In this document: positions 43,616 through 49,540 of the stretch, one piece after another
Position numbering within the stretch: the stretch's first letter is position 1
Layout: each line of letters opens with the position of its first letter
Assembly: GCA_017860255.1 (NCBI GenBank)
Contig: JAFNAR010000002.1
Span: forward strand, 62,001 to 126,000
Direction: 5' to 3'
DNA: 64,000 bases
DNA from: Bacteroidota bacterium
GTDB lineage: Bacteria; Bacteroidota; Bacteroidia; Bacteroidales; P3
Position numbers and translations under genes: made by a program
Notes under the pieces: generated by a model
Seen by the model: the letters and a program-made list of their open reading frames with translations, nothing else
What the model was told of the DNA's origin: nothing
Database searches by the model: none

Positions 43616-44365
43616 TTATTTATCCAACCATTTTAAGAAATGATGTACCCTATCACGACCCACAAAAATATCAATATCGCATTGGGGGGTAAGAACAATT
43701 TTAAGTGACCTGTTCGAATATCTTATTATTTCATCAATTGCTTCAATTGAAGCAATACATTTTCTTGATACTTTAAAAAATAATTTTGGATCAAGCATAA
43801 ATTCTAAATTTTCTATTGTATAGTCTACAATATATTTATTATTGTCTTTTGTGATTAAGAAATTATTCCTATCACAAGAATAGACGTAAGCAATATTATT
43901 TACATCAACAACAATAAGTTTTGCCCCTAATTTTATGACAAACCTATTTTTATAATTATTCTCGTTCGATTTAGGTATAATCTTGTTTATTCTGTTTATA
44001 TATGAATCAAAATCGTTTATTTTTAGGAACTTATTAACCGACTGAATCAAATCTTCATCAATAATGGGTTTTAGTAAATAACCAATAGAGTTTTCTTTAA
44101 ATGCTCTTATTGCATATTCATTGTAGGCTGTTACAAAAATAACAGGAGTTTTAATTTCTAAATGTTCAAAGATTTCAAAGCTAATACCATCCTTTAGTTG
44201 AATGTCCATAAATAATAGGTCAACCGTGTTTTCGCTTAACCATTCAATGCTTTCTTTAACCGAACTTAATATTTTAACAACGTCAAGCTCAGGAAAATAT
44301 TTATTTAATAAATCCTTTAGTTCTTCTTGACTTAGCGGTTCATCTTCAATTATTGCTACTTTCAT
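43616..44365 (-). CDS. LytTR-family response regulator
   Basis: 249 residues: receiver domain (about 1-120) with the acidic pocket EDE (7-9), phospho-acceptor D54 in LLFMDIQ, T81-equivalent in VTAYNEYAIRAF and K102-equivalent in YLLKPI. A LytTR DNA-binding domain follows (about 140-245) with VVDVNNIAYVYSCDRNNFLI and FLKWLDK. The gene overlaps the histidine kinase gene by four bases and is translated after it. LytTR regulators control envelope and surface functions in many Bacteroidota; the target here could be the giant FN3 gene beside it, by position only. Confidence 0.92.
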   Translation of the reverse strand: MKVAIIEDEPLSQEELKDLLNKYFPELDVVKILSSVKESIEWLSENTVDLLFMDIQLKDGISFEIFEHLEIKTPVIFVTAYNEYAIRAFKENSIGYLLKPIIDEDLIQSVNKFLKINDFDSYINRINKIIPKSNENNYKNRFVIKLGAKLIVVDVNNIAYVYSCDRNNFLITKDNNKYIVDYTIENLEFMLDPKLFFKVSRKCIASIEAIDEIIRYSNRSLKIVLTPQCDIDIFVGRDRVHHFLKWLDK

Positions 44366-45360
44366 AATAATGGTATTTTTACGACAAAGTTCTTACTATC
44401 ATTAATGATTTCAATATCCTTTGAACAAAGAATATCATATTTTTGATTTAGATTTTTTAGTCCAACTCCAGTAGAATCTATTATTGTTGTTTTCTTAATA
44501 ATATTATTCTCAACTATTATTTTATTATTTTCTGTATAAATATATACATTTAAAGGATTATCTGAATAAATAGAATTATGTTTTACTGCATTTTCAATAA
44601 GTAATTGTAACGACAATGGAATAATTCGCTTTTTTTTTAACTTCTCATCAATATTATAACTAACATTTAGCCCATCTTCATAACGAATTTGAAGAATTTC
44701 AATATATTTTTTTATAAACTCTATTTCTTCTTCCAAACTAACAATATCATTTTCCATATTGATTAAAACATATCGATAAACAGAAGATAATTTCTGAGTA
44801 TATTTAACTGCTTTGTCTTGATTTCTTTTTATTAGAGAAATTGATACGCTTAAACTATTAAAAAGAAAATGAGGATTTAATTGATTCTTTAATTGAGTAT
44901 ATTTAAGCTTTTCTTTTTCTAACTCACTTTGTTTGTATTTATTGTAATAATAAATTGTCTCCAATAAAATTAAAATAAAGATACTTTCGACATTTGAAAT
45001 GAAAAAATATTTTCCTTGAAAAATATTTGAAAAATATTCATTTATATTTATTGGTCTCATAAATATATTTTGGAAAATAAACGTAATGATATTTGATATT
45101 ATAAGGATATATATCACTTTTATTATAAATACCTTTTTTTTCTCTCTATGTTTTAAATTCTTATTTAAAAGGATTACTCCTATATTGAATAAAAGAATTA
45201 TAATGGAAATTATGATGATATTTATAATTAGATATCGTATTATAACATCAGAATTTAAATCACGAAAAATTAAAATATCGATAGGTAAAAAGAATAAAAT
45301 AGGAATAATCACTGTAATGATATACATTGCAAATATTTTTTTTAGTCCTTTTGTATGCAT
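44362..45360 (-). CDS. LytS/YehU-type membrane sensor histidine kinase
   Basis: 332 residues with four predicted membrane helices in the first 135 residues, then a short linker and a His_kinase domain. The phospho-acceptor is H164 in LKNQLNPHFLFNSLSVSI, the LytS signature, and the ATPase N-box is LLIENAVKHNSI. Typical for the simple histidine kinases that pair with LytTR regulators. Its stop overlaps the regulator's start by four bases (ATGA). No extracellular sensor domain is present, so the signal is probably membrane-borne. Confidence 0.92.
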   Translation of the reverse strand: MHTKGLKKIFAMYIITVIIPILFFLPIDILIFRDLNSDVIIRYLIINIIIISIIILLFNIGVILLNKNLKHREKKKVFIIKVIYILIISNIITFIFQNIFMRPININEYFSNIFQGKYFFISNVESIFILILLETIYYYNKYKQSELEKEKLKYTQLKNQLNPHFLFNSLSVSISLIKRNQDKAVKYTQKLSSVYRYVLINMENDIVSLEEEIEFIKKYIEILQIRYEDGLNVSYNIDEKLKKKRIIPLSLQLLIENAVKHNSIYSDNPLNVYIYTENNKIIVENNIIKKTTIIDSTGVGLKNLNQKYDILCSKDIEIINDSKNFVVKIPLL

Positions 45361-45522
45361 TTCAATATTCTTTTTTCTAATCGCAAAAGTACATTTTTTT
45401 TTCTAATCAGTTAGGATTATTTTCCTTTATAGATATCTCTCTACTAAATTAAATTTGAAAATAAATTTTGTCCCTTTAGTTTTAATATATTATAGATAAT
45501 ATATTCGGATTGATTTTTTTTG

Positions 45523-45530
45523 TATTTTTG
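45523..45530 (+). promoter_or_regulatory. -7 element of the cysK leader
   Basis: TATTTTTG matches TAnnTTTG. No convincing TTTG at the expected -33 distance. It would give a transcript starting near 45537, about 430 bases before the cysK ATG. Confidence 0.4.
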
Positions 45531-45603
45531 CCAACAATATTTTACCATCTATGGTAATTCAAAACAATACCTTATAAGGGGTAACAACTTAAAATTAAAT
45601 ATT

Positions 45604-45699
45604 ATGTACTTCATCGATTTATTAAAACAAGCTCAAAAAAATCAACAATTTTTGATCCTTAATTTACGATATTGTTGTTGTATGCAATATATATTTTAG
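45604..45699 (+). CDS. Putative cysteine-sensing leader peptide (CCC)
   Basis: A 31-residue ORF (MYFIDLLKQAQK ... LRYCCCMQYIF) that ends at TAG 45697-45699. Three consecutive TGT codons (45673-45681) encode Cys24-Cys26, five codons before the end. The genes downstream are cysK and cysE, which make cysteine. A run of codons for the end product just before a terminator is the mark of transcription attenuation, known for amino acid operons and for polycysteine short ORFs in mycobacteria. I am not aware of this one being described. Alternatively it is a chance ORF. Confidence 0.6.
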   Translation: MYFIDLLKQAQKNQQFLILNLRYCCCMQYIF

Positions 45700-45808
45700 T
45701 TTATATTCTCTATAAACACCCTAAAAGGCTTAAATTTCGAAGTATTTAAATTTACGATGACATTATGTTTATTGTAAATGTAAAATCCCATTATTAATTT
45801 ATCAAACT

Positions 45809-45894
45809 CAATAGGATAATTTTATTTCAATGGGTTGTTATCTATTAAAATTTTACAATAAATAATTCAGGAATAAATTCCTATTGATTTTTTT
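45809..45894 (+). promoter_or_regulatory. Candidate attenuator: competing hairpins upstream of cysK
   Basis: TCAATAGGA (45808-45816) pairs perfectly with TCCTATTGA (45879-45887), followed by T7 (45888-45894): a nine-pair terminator-like stem with a large loop. The same 5' arm can instead pair with TTATCTATT (45838-45846), using 45810-45819 with one bulge, so the two are mutually exclusive. This is the layout expected of a terminator/antiterminator switch. The long loop (about 62 bases) weakens the terminator. Confidence 0.5.
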
Positions 45895-45966
45895 AGCCCT
45901 CCAAATGTTATAGTATACATATAGGTATATATTAAACAGCAATTGTTAAACAAATAAATATTTTTT

Positions 45967-46896
45967 ATGAAGATAGCAAATAATATGTCTGAACTAATAG
46001 GTAATACACCATTAGTAAAATTAAACAAAATTACAGAAAACAGCTTTGCCGATGTTGTTGCAAAGCTTGATTTTTTTAATCCAACAAATTCTATTAAAGA
46101 TAGAGCAGGATGGGCAATGATTGATGATGCCGAAAAAAATGGATTAATAAACAAACAAAGTGTAATAATTGAACCAACAAGTGGAAACACAGGAATTGCA
46201 CTTGCTTTTACATGTGTGATAAAGGGCTATAGGTTAATTCTTACAATGCCTGAAAGTATGAGTATTGAACGCAGAAAATTATTAAAGGGATTAGGTGCTG
46301 AATTAGTTTTAACTCCTGCAATTTTAGGTATGAAAGGAGCAATTGAAAAAGCAGAAGAACTTTCAAAATCAATACCAAATTCTTTTATTCCGCAACAATT
46401 TCAAAATAAATCTAATTCCATGATTCATAAGATAACTACAGCGAAAGAGATTTGGACTGATACAGATGGAAGGGTAGATATAATTGTTGCAGGTGTTGGG
46501 ACTGGAGGAACAATTACAGGAGTATCGGAAGAATTAAAGAGAATAAAGCCAGAAATAATTAGCATTGCTGTTGAACCAGAATCTTCACCAGTATTATCGG
46601 GAGGATTACCTTCTTTACACAAAATACAAGGTATAGGAGCAGGATTTATTCCTGAAGTATTTAATAAAAACATTATTGATGGTATTATTCAGGTAAGTAA
46701 TGACAATGCAATAAATACAGCTCAACGACTAATAAGAGAAGAAGGTATTATGTGTGGCATTTCATCTGGGGCTGCAGTATGGGCTGCAATTCAGATTGCA
46801 AAAGAGAAAGAAAATAAGGACAAACTTATTGTTGTGATATTGCCTGATACTGCGGAAAGATATTTAAGTACAGATTTGTATGATTTTAATTTATAA
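45967..46896 (+). CDS. cysK: Cysteine synthase A (O-acetylserine sulfhydrylase)
   Basis: PLP enzyme that makes cysteine from O-acetylserine and sulfide. The 309-residue protein has the PLP lysine K44 in [14 protein letters not shown], the phosphate-binding PTSGNTG (70-76), and [14 protein letters not shown] in the C-terminal lobe. Length and motifs fit CysK; the closest alternative is cystathionine beta-synthase without regulatory domains. It is followed six bases later by the serine acetyltransferase gene, whose product makes its substrate. Confidence 0.95.
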
Positions 46897-46902
46897 GTAA
46901 AG

Positions 46903-47778
46903 ATGGAAAGAGATAAAAAATTATATGATAAAGTTGTGATGGAATTGAATGATTTGGAAATAAATAAATTCCAAGATGATAAAGCGAAAACTTATTTATC
47001 ACAACCTTCTATTTATGATTTAATAGATATATTAAATCATATTAAAGAAGTGTTGTTCCCCATATTTGTGAAAGACGAAATAAAATATTCTTCACCAATT
47101 AACCATTTTAGTAATAAGTTGGAAATAATTTATGAATTATTACAAGAACAAATTAGACGAGGATTATGTTTTTCATGCTCTCAAAAAACTTATGATTGTT
47201 TTGTTTGTGATGAAGAAGCTCATAATAAAGCAAGAAGTTTTATTGAAAGATTGCCCTTAATTAAACAATTATTATTAACGGATGTAAAGGCAGCTTACAA
47301 TGGAGATCCTGCAGCAAAAAGTAGTGAAGAAATAATATTATGTTATCCAAGTATTGAGGCAATAACTCATTATAGAATTGCACATGAATTGTGGCAATTA
47401 GGTGTAAAATTGTTACCAAGAATGATTATGGAAATCTTACATTCAAAAACAGGAATTGATATTCATCCAGGAGCAAGAATTGGTAAATATTTTTTTATTG
47501 ATCATGGAACAGGAGTTGTTATTGGTGAAACAACAATAATTGGTGATAATGTCAGACTATATCAAGGTGTTACTTTGGGAGCTAAAAATTTCCCTCTTGA
47601 TGACAAGGGAAAACCAATAAAAGGGATAGAAAGGCATCCTATAATTAAAGACAATGTTATTATTTATTCTAATGCAACTATTTTAGGAAGAATAACAATT
47701 GGAGAAAATTCAGTTATTGGTGGAAATACTTGGATTGTGAAGAATGTTCCTCCAAATTCAAAGATATTTAATCTATAA
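46903..47778 (+). CDS. cysE: Serine O-acetyltransferase (EpsC/CysE type)
   Basis: Acetylates serine at the hydroxyl with acetyl-CoA, giving O-acetylserine for CysK. The 291-residue protein has an N-terminal helical domain (about 1-170) and a left-handed beta-helix with hexapeptide repeats (about 175-290): [33 protein letters not shown], including the catalytic His/Asp region. The C-terminus PNSKIFNL ends in Ile-Phe-Asn-Leu; classic CysE ends in Ile, which binds the CysK active site, so complex formation is uncertain. Overlaps nothing; operon with cysK. Confidence 0.93.
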
Positions 47779-47794
47779 TAGATATGAGAAAAAA

Positions 47795-47957
47795 GACGGC
47801 CTAATTTTGGGAAAAGTAGGCTGTCTAAATAGTAAAAAGAGGCCGTCCATGGGTGGTGTAGACGGCCTCCACGACCCCCGTAGACGGCCTCTACAGAGTT
47901 GTGGATGGCGTCTTTTTGCGTTTTTGAGGCCGTAGTTTTGGCAAAAACAGGCCGTCT
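47795..47957. repeat. Cluster of GACGGCCT/AGGCCGTC repeats, GC-rich
   Basis: Eight related nonamers alternate in orientation: 47795-47802, 47818-47826, 47839-47848, 47861-47870, 47883-47892, 47904-47912, 47926-47935 and 47949-47957. Their pairing gives a nested, strongly GC-rich hairpin, out of character in this AT-rich genome. It lies between convergent cysE and the HU-like gene, so it might act as a bidirectional terminator, but no simple terminator has this many repeats. Confidence 0.75.
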
Positions 47958-47969
47958 TTTTGCAGTTTT

Positions 47970-48677: not shown

Positions 48678-49057
48678 ATACACATATTTATTGTTTAACT
48701 AAAACAATTAACATGAAATTAATTGTTGGATAGTTCAAGTTTGGAATTGGATTTTACAATTAAGATTGATGTTTTAATATGTATTATCCAAAGAAAAAAT
48801 ATAGATTATGTATTTTTGTTTGTTATCTATAAATTTTCTGAATACAAAATTAGATGCATAAGTTTATTGAAAAAAACTTACTCGCATGAACAGGAATAAA
48901 TATAGGATGAGAAGGCGTTATAAAGGACTAAAATGGATAAAACTGATTAATCAATCTGAAAATGGATTTCAAGAAATTAATTTTAGTTTATGGGAATATA
49001 AAAAATACCACTCAGTTTTCTGGGTGATATCTTTATTTATTTTTAAGACTTCTTATC

Positions 49058-49211: not shown

Positions 49212-49540
49212 AACTATTATTATTGTTTAACTAACACAATTAAAGAATTTTAATTGTCGACTAGTTCTAATGAAATTTGGATTCTACAATTTGCAATTAA
49301 TATTAATGTTTTTAATATGTATTATCCAAAGAAAAAATATAGATTCTGTATTTTTGTTTGTTATCTATAAATTTTATGAATGCAAAATTAGAAGTAAAAG
49401 TTTATTGAAAAAAACTTACTCGCATGAACAGGAATAAATTTAGGATGAAATGGCGTTATAAAGAGCTAAAATGGATAAAACTGATTAATCCTTCTGAAAA
49501 TGGATTTCAAGAAAATAGTTTGAGTTTATAGGAATAAAAA

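Follow-up and report, generated by a model that had tools for sequence, protein, structure and literature searches.

A putative cysteine-responsive leader ORF upstream of cysK-cysE in Bacteroidales and its probable descent from a SAM-riboswitch leader

Organization of the cysK-cysE locus

The analyzed window is a stretch of DNA of 64,000 nt, contained in a 2.58-Mb genome (G000:C48) that is placed in Bacteroidales by its gene content and relatives. On its plus strand, cysK, encoding cysteine synthase A (45967-46896; TIGR01139, 455 bits, above the cut-off), is followed in the operon by a gene for serine O-acetyltransferase of the cysE/epsC type (46903-47778), which scores above the cut-off of the EpsC-type model NF041874 and, with 182 bits, below that of the cysE model TIGR01172. 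The upstream neighbors of the leader region, encoded on the minus strand, are a paired histidine kinase and LytTR response regulator (43616-45360). The sequence TATTTTTG (45523-45530, plus strand, as are all features below) matches TAnnTTTG, the consensus of the -7 element of Bacteroidota sigma-A (PMC9723704), which places the putative transcription start near 45537. Directly 3' of this presumed start there is a near-perfect inverted repeat TTACCATCTATGGTAA (45542-45557), predicted to form a six-pair hairpin; it may be an operator or a 5' hairpin.

The leader ORF, MYFIDLLKQAQKNQQFLILNLRYCCCMQYIF, comprises 31 codons (45604-45699), among them three consecutive TGT codons (45673-45681), the proposed sensing codons, which are followed by ATG. 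The interval of 267 nt between its stop and cysK is AT-rich. Predicted structures here are a stop-proximal hairpin GTTTATA-TTCTC-TATAAAC in the free leader (45699-45717), an AT-rich hairpin (45750-45779), and a terminator-like hairpin (45808-45887) with outer arms TCAATAGGA (45808-45816) and TCCTATTGA (45879-45887), adjoined by a T7 tract (45888-45894). An earlier note on this DNA had interpreted the region as a polycysteine leader with a possible transcription attenuator, in which the arm TTATCTATT (45838-45846) would compete for the 5' strand of a nine-pair stem. The ORF with its TGT codons, the stem, the T tract and the competing arm are all present exactly where it had placed them; the extent of the stem has to be corrected, since the nine pairs belong to the outer portion of an imperfect hairpin with 26 pairs in all.

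Homologous leaders and probable loss of the SAM riboswitch

This cysK was found in two of the ten other species examined from the same genus, and both of them (G002 and G003) have a 31-codon leader, MYYKNLLDQTLKNQHLLIFVFRCCMSRPDCL and MTQSSLLAKSPKSSKSSTLDFRCCMSCPDIL, respectively. The window leader aligns with the one of G002 with z 5.7 (none of 2000 shuffles being as good) and with the one of G003 with z 4.2 (0.05% of 2000 shuffles as good). At the place homologous to the TGT codons, both congeners have RCCM, that is, the run is CCM, versus CCC followed by M in the window. Short ORFs are common in the window, and TGTTGTTGT is present 108 times in the 2.58-Mb genome, as would be expected if the ORF had simply arisen by chance in AT-rich sequence, but the homology of the leaders is far beyond that of shuffles, and polycysteine leaders are recurrently associated with cysK (see below), so we regard a chance origin as extremely improbable.

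Immediately 5' of the leader ORF both congeners carry a SAM riboswitch (Rfam; 69.4 bits in G002 and 66.9 bits in G003). The respective family, RF00162, has no match in the window at the gathering threshold, none at E<=10 in positions 45400-46000, and none in the whole genome. The kinase and regulator genes neighbor the locus in G002 as well, where the order is SAM riboswitch, leader, metY, cysK, cysE, metX, hom (metY, metX and hom named from sequence); compared with this operon, the one in the window is devoid of metY, metX and hom. In G003 the operon consists of cysK-cysE. The -7 element and the leader ATG are 194-196 nt apart in G002 and G003 versus 81 nt in the window; the shortfall has roughly the length of an aptamer and fits the loss of a single one. 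The window leader is thus probably descended from a composite of SAM riboswitch and leader, and comparison of the three loci suggests that the aptamer was lost, rather than gained, in the window lineage. By its homology to the leaders of G002 and G003 and by CCCM in its tail, the ORF belongs to the S-box-associated Met/Cys leader ORFs of Bacteroidales described below, while the absence of the RF00162 aptamer from its 5' UTR sets it apart from S-box (SAM-I) riboswitch leaders proper.

A candidate remnant of the SAM aptamer in the 5' UTR of the window was rejected, being strong only if the A-rich start region was counted; without this region P amounts to 0.02-0.05, and S-boxes with no relation to it score up to z 3.3. 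With the A-rich start region excluded, the likeness of the 5' UTR to the 3' end of the aptamer is at most suggestive. Downstream of the ORF, the window shows no alignment with the congeners above chance; the post-ORF regions of G002 and G003 do align with each other. A presumed compensatory change in their stop-proximal CCAGA/TCTGG hairpin was also rejected, as a flanking pair turns into a mismatch (judged by eye).

The diverged post-ORF region, the lack of a demonstrable switch (see below) and the inverted repeat at the presumed transcription start would be consistent with the leader being a relic, still translated and non-regulating since the loss of the riboswitch, with cysK controlled otherwise, e.g. 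by a protein that acts at the inverted repeat (45542-45557). However, the ORF is intact and similar to the one of G002 along its whole length, and its Cys run has three codons versus two in the congeners; we consider such decay unlikely.

The terminator-like hairpin and the proposed switch

The full hairpin (45800-45897) has a predicted energy of -18.2 kcal/mol and z -3.3 against dinucleotide shuffles, and when the 267 nt after the ORF are shuffled, 0.4% of the shuffles contain a stem of at least nine Watson-Crick pairs adjoining a tract of six or more T (with loops of at most 70 nt). The hairpin with its T7 is AU-rich, imperfect and not conserved in the congeners. It is separated from the leader stop by 108 nt and from the Cys run by 127 nt.

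In a classical intrinsic attenuator, as put forward in the earlier note, stalling at the Cys codons would move the pairing from the terminator 45808/45887 to the arm 45810-45819/45838-45846 via the intermediate hairpins. The better-than-chance hairpin with T7 and the complete examples before cysK in four other families (see below) speak for such a device, but the predicted folding does not switch between ribosome states. In particular, the terminator-like stem has a probability of about 0.96-0.97 in all modelled states (leader free, ribosome stalled at Cys, ribosome at the stop), persisting whether the Cys region is occupied or not, and the suggested relay of stalling via the intermediate AT-rich hairpins found no support. 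Moreover, the 5' half of the terminator lacks a significant partner: its best pairing with the post-Cys region is ordinary (31.7% of shuffles are as good), and for its pairing with the stop-proximal arm 61% of shuffles are as good. The pairing of this arm with three targets is at the chance level overall (42-66% of shuffles as good). Finally, the distance of 108 nt from stop to hairpin has to be compared with 23-42 nt in the four clear cases. The two-hairpin switch is therefore not borne out in the window, and a classical intrinsic attenuator is improbable here.

By its presumed mode of working, the window leader would be a Cys attenuator, with an end-product codon run in the leader as in the classical family (CCC before cysK-cysE, RCCM in the congeners), but it stands outside this family, since a ribosome-governed antiterminator is not demonstrable in the window and is found in the four loci L250, L292, L309 and L320 described below. 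The hairpin with T7 (45808-45894) may serve as a terminator; a step dependent on Rho or on translation is about as likely.

The leader may work without an intrinsic terminator, by Rho-dependent termination or by translational coupling past the stop, as may hold for the ancestral SAM-riboswitch leaders. S-box leaders show hardly any enrichment of intrinsic terminators behind them (see below), the gene for Rho was found in the window's genome, and mycobacterial cys leaders are also devoid of obvious terminators, Rho having been suggested there (PMC1262725). On the other hand, the window does have a hairpin with T7, and the leader end and the cysK start pair only at the chance level (66% of shuffles as good). 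This possibility is a serious one, to which we assign somewhat less than even odds.

Polycysteine attenuators upstream of cysK in other Bacteroidales

Among 100 cysK upstream regions from the order, picked by similarity to the cysK of the window, seven contain an ATG ORF with at least three Cys in five residues, versus a mean of 0.63 and a maximum of 2 in shuffles and two on the antisense strand. The same test for seven other residues shows no such excess (for Gln, the four ORFs, versus a mean of 0.97, are no more than the highest number reached in shuffles). The CCC ORF of L253 was judged to be a chance one and rejected, as part of it lies within the coding region of the gene preceding cysK.

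Complete attenuators were identified in four families, with leaders MKISAYISINCCWCCENTSKCKQFVNM (L250, genome G164), MMLNYLTYKICCCCENIKFLHR (L292, G182), MITKLIYSACCCTTL (L309, G202) and MKINKLNNTCCCSRIKVCCR (L320, G089). In all four loci TAnnTTTG is located 13-26 nt 5' of the leader ATG, an antiterminator arm starts 12-16 nt past the Cys run, at the stop or close to it, and a strong GC-rich hairpin with a T tract is found 23-42 nt past the stop. The arm pairs with the 5' side of the terminator at -15.5, -12.7, -20.5 and -10.9 kcal/mol in L250, L292, L309 and L320, respectively, while 0, 0, 0 and 0.7% of shuffles pair as well. According to this arrangement, a ribosome paused over the Cys codons would keep clear of the arm, while a ribosome at the stop would mask it. 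No Rfam family matches these loci at threshold. These attenuators are clearer than the window's own leader, and the four loci, which are GC-richer, offer a simple and direct test system. A convincing Cys leader was not found at cysK loci mostly of other phyla.

One further cysK-cysE locus, in G053 (L019/L222), has no S-box and possibly a Cys-rich leader with a TTG start, ending in ..CLFGICCMLCCTPSGTN; the leader end overlaps a perfect eight-pair hairpin TTGTACCC/GGGTACAA.

SAM-riboswitch leaders of Bacteroidales

From genomes of the order, 100 SAM riboswitches (S-box loci L039-L050 and L131-L218) were taken irrespective of ORFs. An ATG ORF of 12-70 codons is present 30-75 nt past the core in 75 of them. 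Compared with dinucleotide shuffles, which ignore the kinship among these 75 leaders, spanning many families, the last 12 residues are enriched 7.4-fold in Met (z 21) and 2.3-fold in Cys (z 5.4), Arg being raised as well (1.8-fold). At least three Met/Cys in the tail were observed in 37 leaders (about 2% expected), which come from 22 of the 38 families having such an ORF. Examples of the tails are ..FIMPLMPMCMRR, ..SSMDMRCMR, ..IFSMRMR, ..SASFCCCFCCC and ..ENDSLCCCCCCC. In the last 36 nt, ATG occupies 133 of 898 in-frame positions and 17 of 1646 out-of-frame ones; it is thus the translated frame that is selected. Elsewhere in the phylum, in a sample of S-boxes of other orders and classes, such tails are almost absent by inspection.

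The leader ATG is located at a median distance of 44 nt past the core, and at seven metH loci without a leader the ATG of the gene itself is found 39-49 nt past the core. This spacing suggests that the riboswitch is placed so as to act on whichever ORF follows. The targets, named by sequence and clustering, include metY/metB, metH, aspartate kinase, metX, a DUF39-type protein and cysK.

Intrinsic terminators follow 25% of the S-box leaders versus 18% of shuffles at -6 kcal/mol, and 12% versus 4% at -12 kcal/mol; being barely above shuffles, they were rejected as the general output of these leaders. Pairing of the leader end with downstream sequence was rejected as well (mean z -0.45, with 3 of 46 below -2 and no common target), and folding around the leader stop in the S-box class is weak (mean z about -0.6 to -0.8) and was given no weight.

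One of the S-boxes precedes a leader ORF ending in seven Cys codons (L160; L256, G291:C1:4461915-4474000). The genes 3' of this leader encode a substrate-binding-like protein, SusC/SusD-like proteins, a permease-like protein and a cysK/CBS-like protein, and the operon possibly serves uptake of sulfur compounds.

Comparison with known systems and interpretation

Leaders with Cys runs are known before cys operons in Mycobacterium and others, where conserved terminators are lacking (PMC1262725); the mycobacterial leader ORFs are also the subject of Canestrari et al. 2020 (as cited in PMC13236596). As in the window, a short ORF with a Cys run precedes cysteine biosynthesis genes, and a readout of charged tRNA-Cys has been proposed. 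The mycobacterial leaders often have no obvious intrinsic terminator. The differences are that a terminator-like hairpin is present in the window, and that the mycobacterial ORFs are leaderless, while the window ORF, with TAnnTTTG 81 nt 5' of its ATG, appears to have a 5' leader of about 67 nt, in the place where its relatives carry the SAM riboswitch. Mycobacteria belong to a different phylum, and the likeness is one of arrangement, no homology being claimed. The second example, uORFC-8-2 before cysS in Rhodobacterales, combines a uORF containing tandem Cys codons with an intrinsic terminator 3' of it, and attenuation was inferred there (PMC8632094). In this it resembles the four clear Bacteroidales cysK loci, while the window differs from it in the gene, in the phylum, and in having no counterpart of the conserved fold that overlaps the Cys codons of uORFC-8-2.

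With the classical attenuators of trp, his and leu type the window shares the end-product codon run in the leader peptide of a biosynthetic operon; their alternative hairpins are demonstrable in L250, L292, L309 and L320, but not in the window. For Flavobacterium, too, amino acid operons have been proposed to be attenuated by leader peptides (PMC9723704). The S-box (SAM-I, RF00162) leaders provide the probable ancestral context, the homologous ORFs being situated directly 3' of an S-box in two congeners, though S-boxes as described do not include an ORF with a Met/Cys run after the aptamer, and the window has no S-box match. Previous examples of Cys-codon leaders came from Actinobacteria and, before cysS, from Rhodobacterales. 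Our analysis extends them to cysK of Bacteroidales, where four families have complete attenuators, and adds a widespread arrangement of a SAM riboswitch and a Met/Cys leader. Our searches of the open-access literature turned up neither Cys leaders at cysK of Bacteroidales nor Met/Cys leaders behind SAM riboswitches; a survey from 2010 (Lopatovskaya and colleagues, cited in PMC4833913) may contain some of either.

The 31-codon ORF is very likely a real Cys-responsive leader, and the role of cysteine sensor for cysK-cysE, ascribed to it in the earlier note, is supported by the homology in the congeners and the attenuators in four families. Our main reading, with a probability of about 0.7, is that it is translated and senses charged tRNA-Cys for cysK-cysE, originating from a SAM-riboswitch composite whose aptamer has been lost. 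From the sequence we infer the translation and the following direction of response. When cysteine is short, the ribosome would pause at the Cys codons and expression of cysK-cysE downstream would be favored; when it is plentiful, the ribosome would reach the stop and expression would be reduced. Loss of the aptamer and of metY, metX and hom would have left a sensor of cysteine only in the window lineage. Counting against this explanation are the lack of a significant antiterminator, the independence of the stem from the ribosome position, the 127-nt gap between the Cys run and the hairpin, the unconserved post-ORF region, and the occurrence of this cysK in just two other species, whose run is CCM.

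A broader reading, which we hold to be about as probable as its opposite, is a two-stage RNA relay of Bacteroidales, in which a SAM riboswitch stands at a fixed distance before a Met/Cys leader reading charged tRNA, and in which the parts have been exchanged in evolution, the window lineage keeping the Cys leader and dropping the riboswitch as the operon shrank to cysteine synthesis. Since most of these leaders have no intrinsic terminator, the subsequent step would be a so far undescribed mechanism. If the relay exists, sulfur amino acid operons would answer to both SAM and aminoacyl-tRNA, a riboswitch and a ribosome-read leader would operate one after the other in the same transcript, and the window would show the dismantling of such a composite as the pathway shrinks.

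Other observations in the window

Directly 3' of cysE, repeats of AGACGGCCT/AGGCCGTCT are clustered in both direct and inverted orientation (47790-47969), with 60-nt arms that are 75% complementary. Further downstream, two similar short ORFs (48723-48899 and 49270-49437; ..CIIQRKNID.VFLFVIYKF.E.KIR..SLLKKTYSHEQE) mark an apparent duplication of this stretch.
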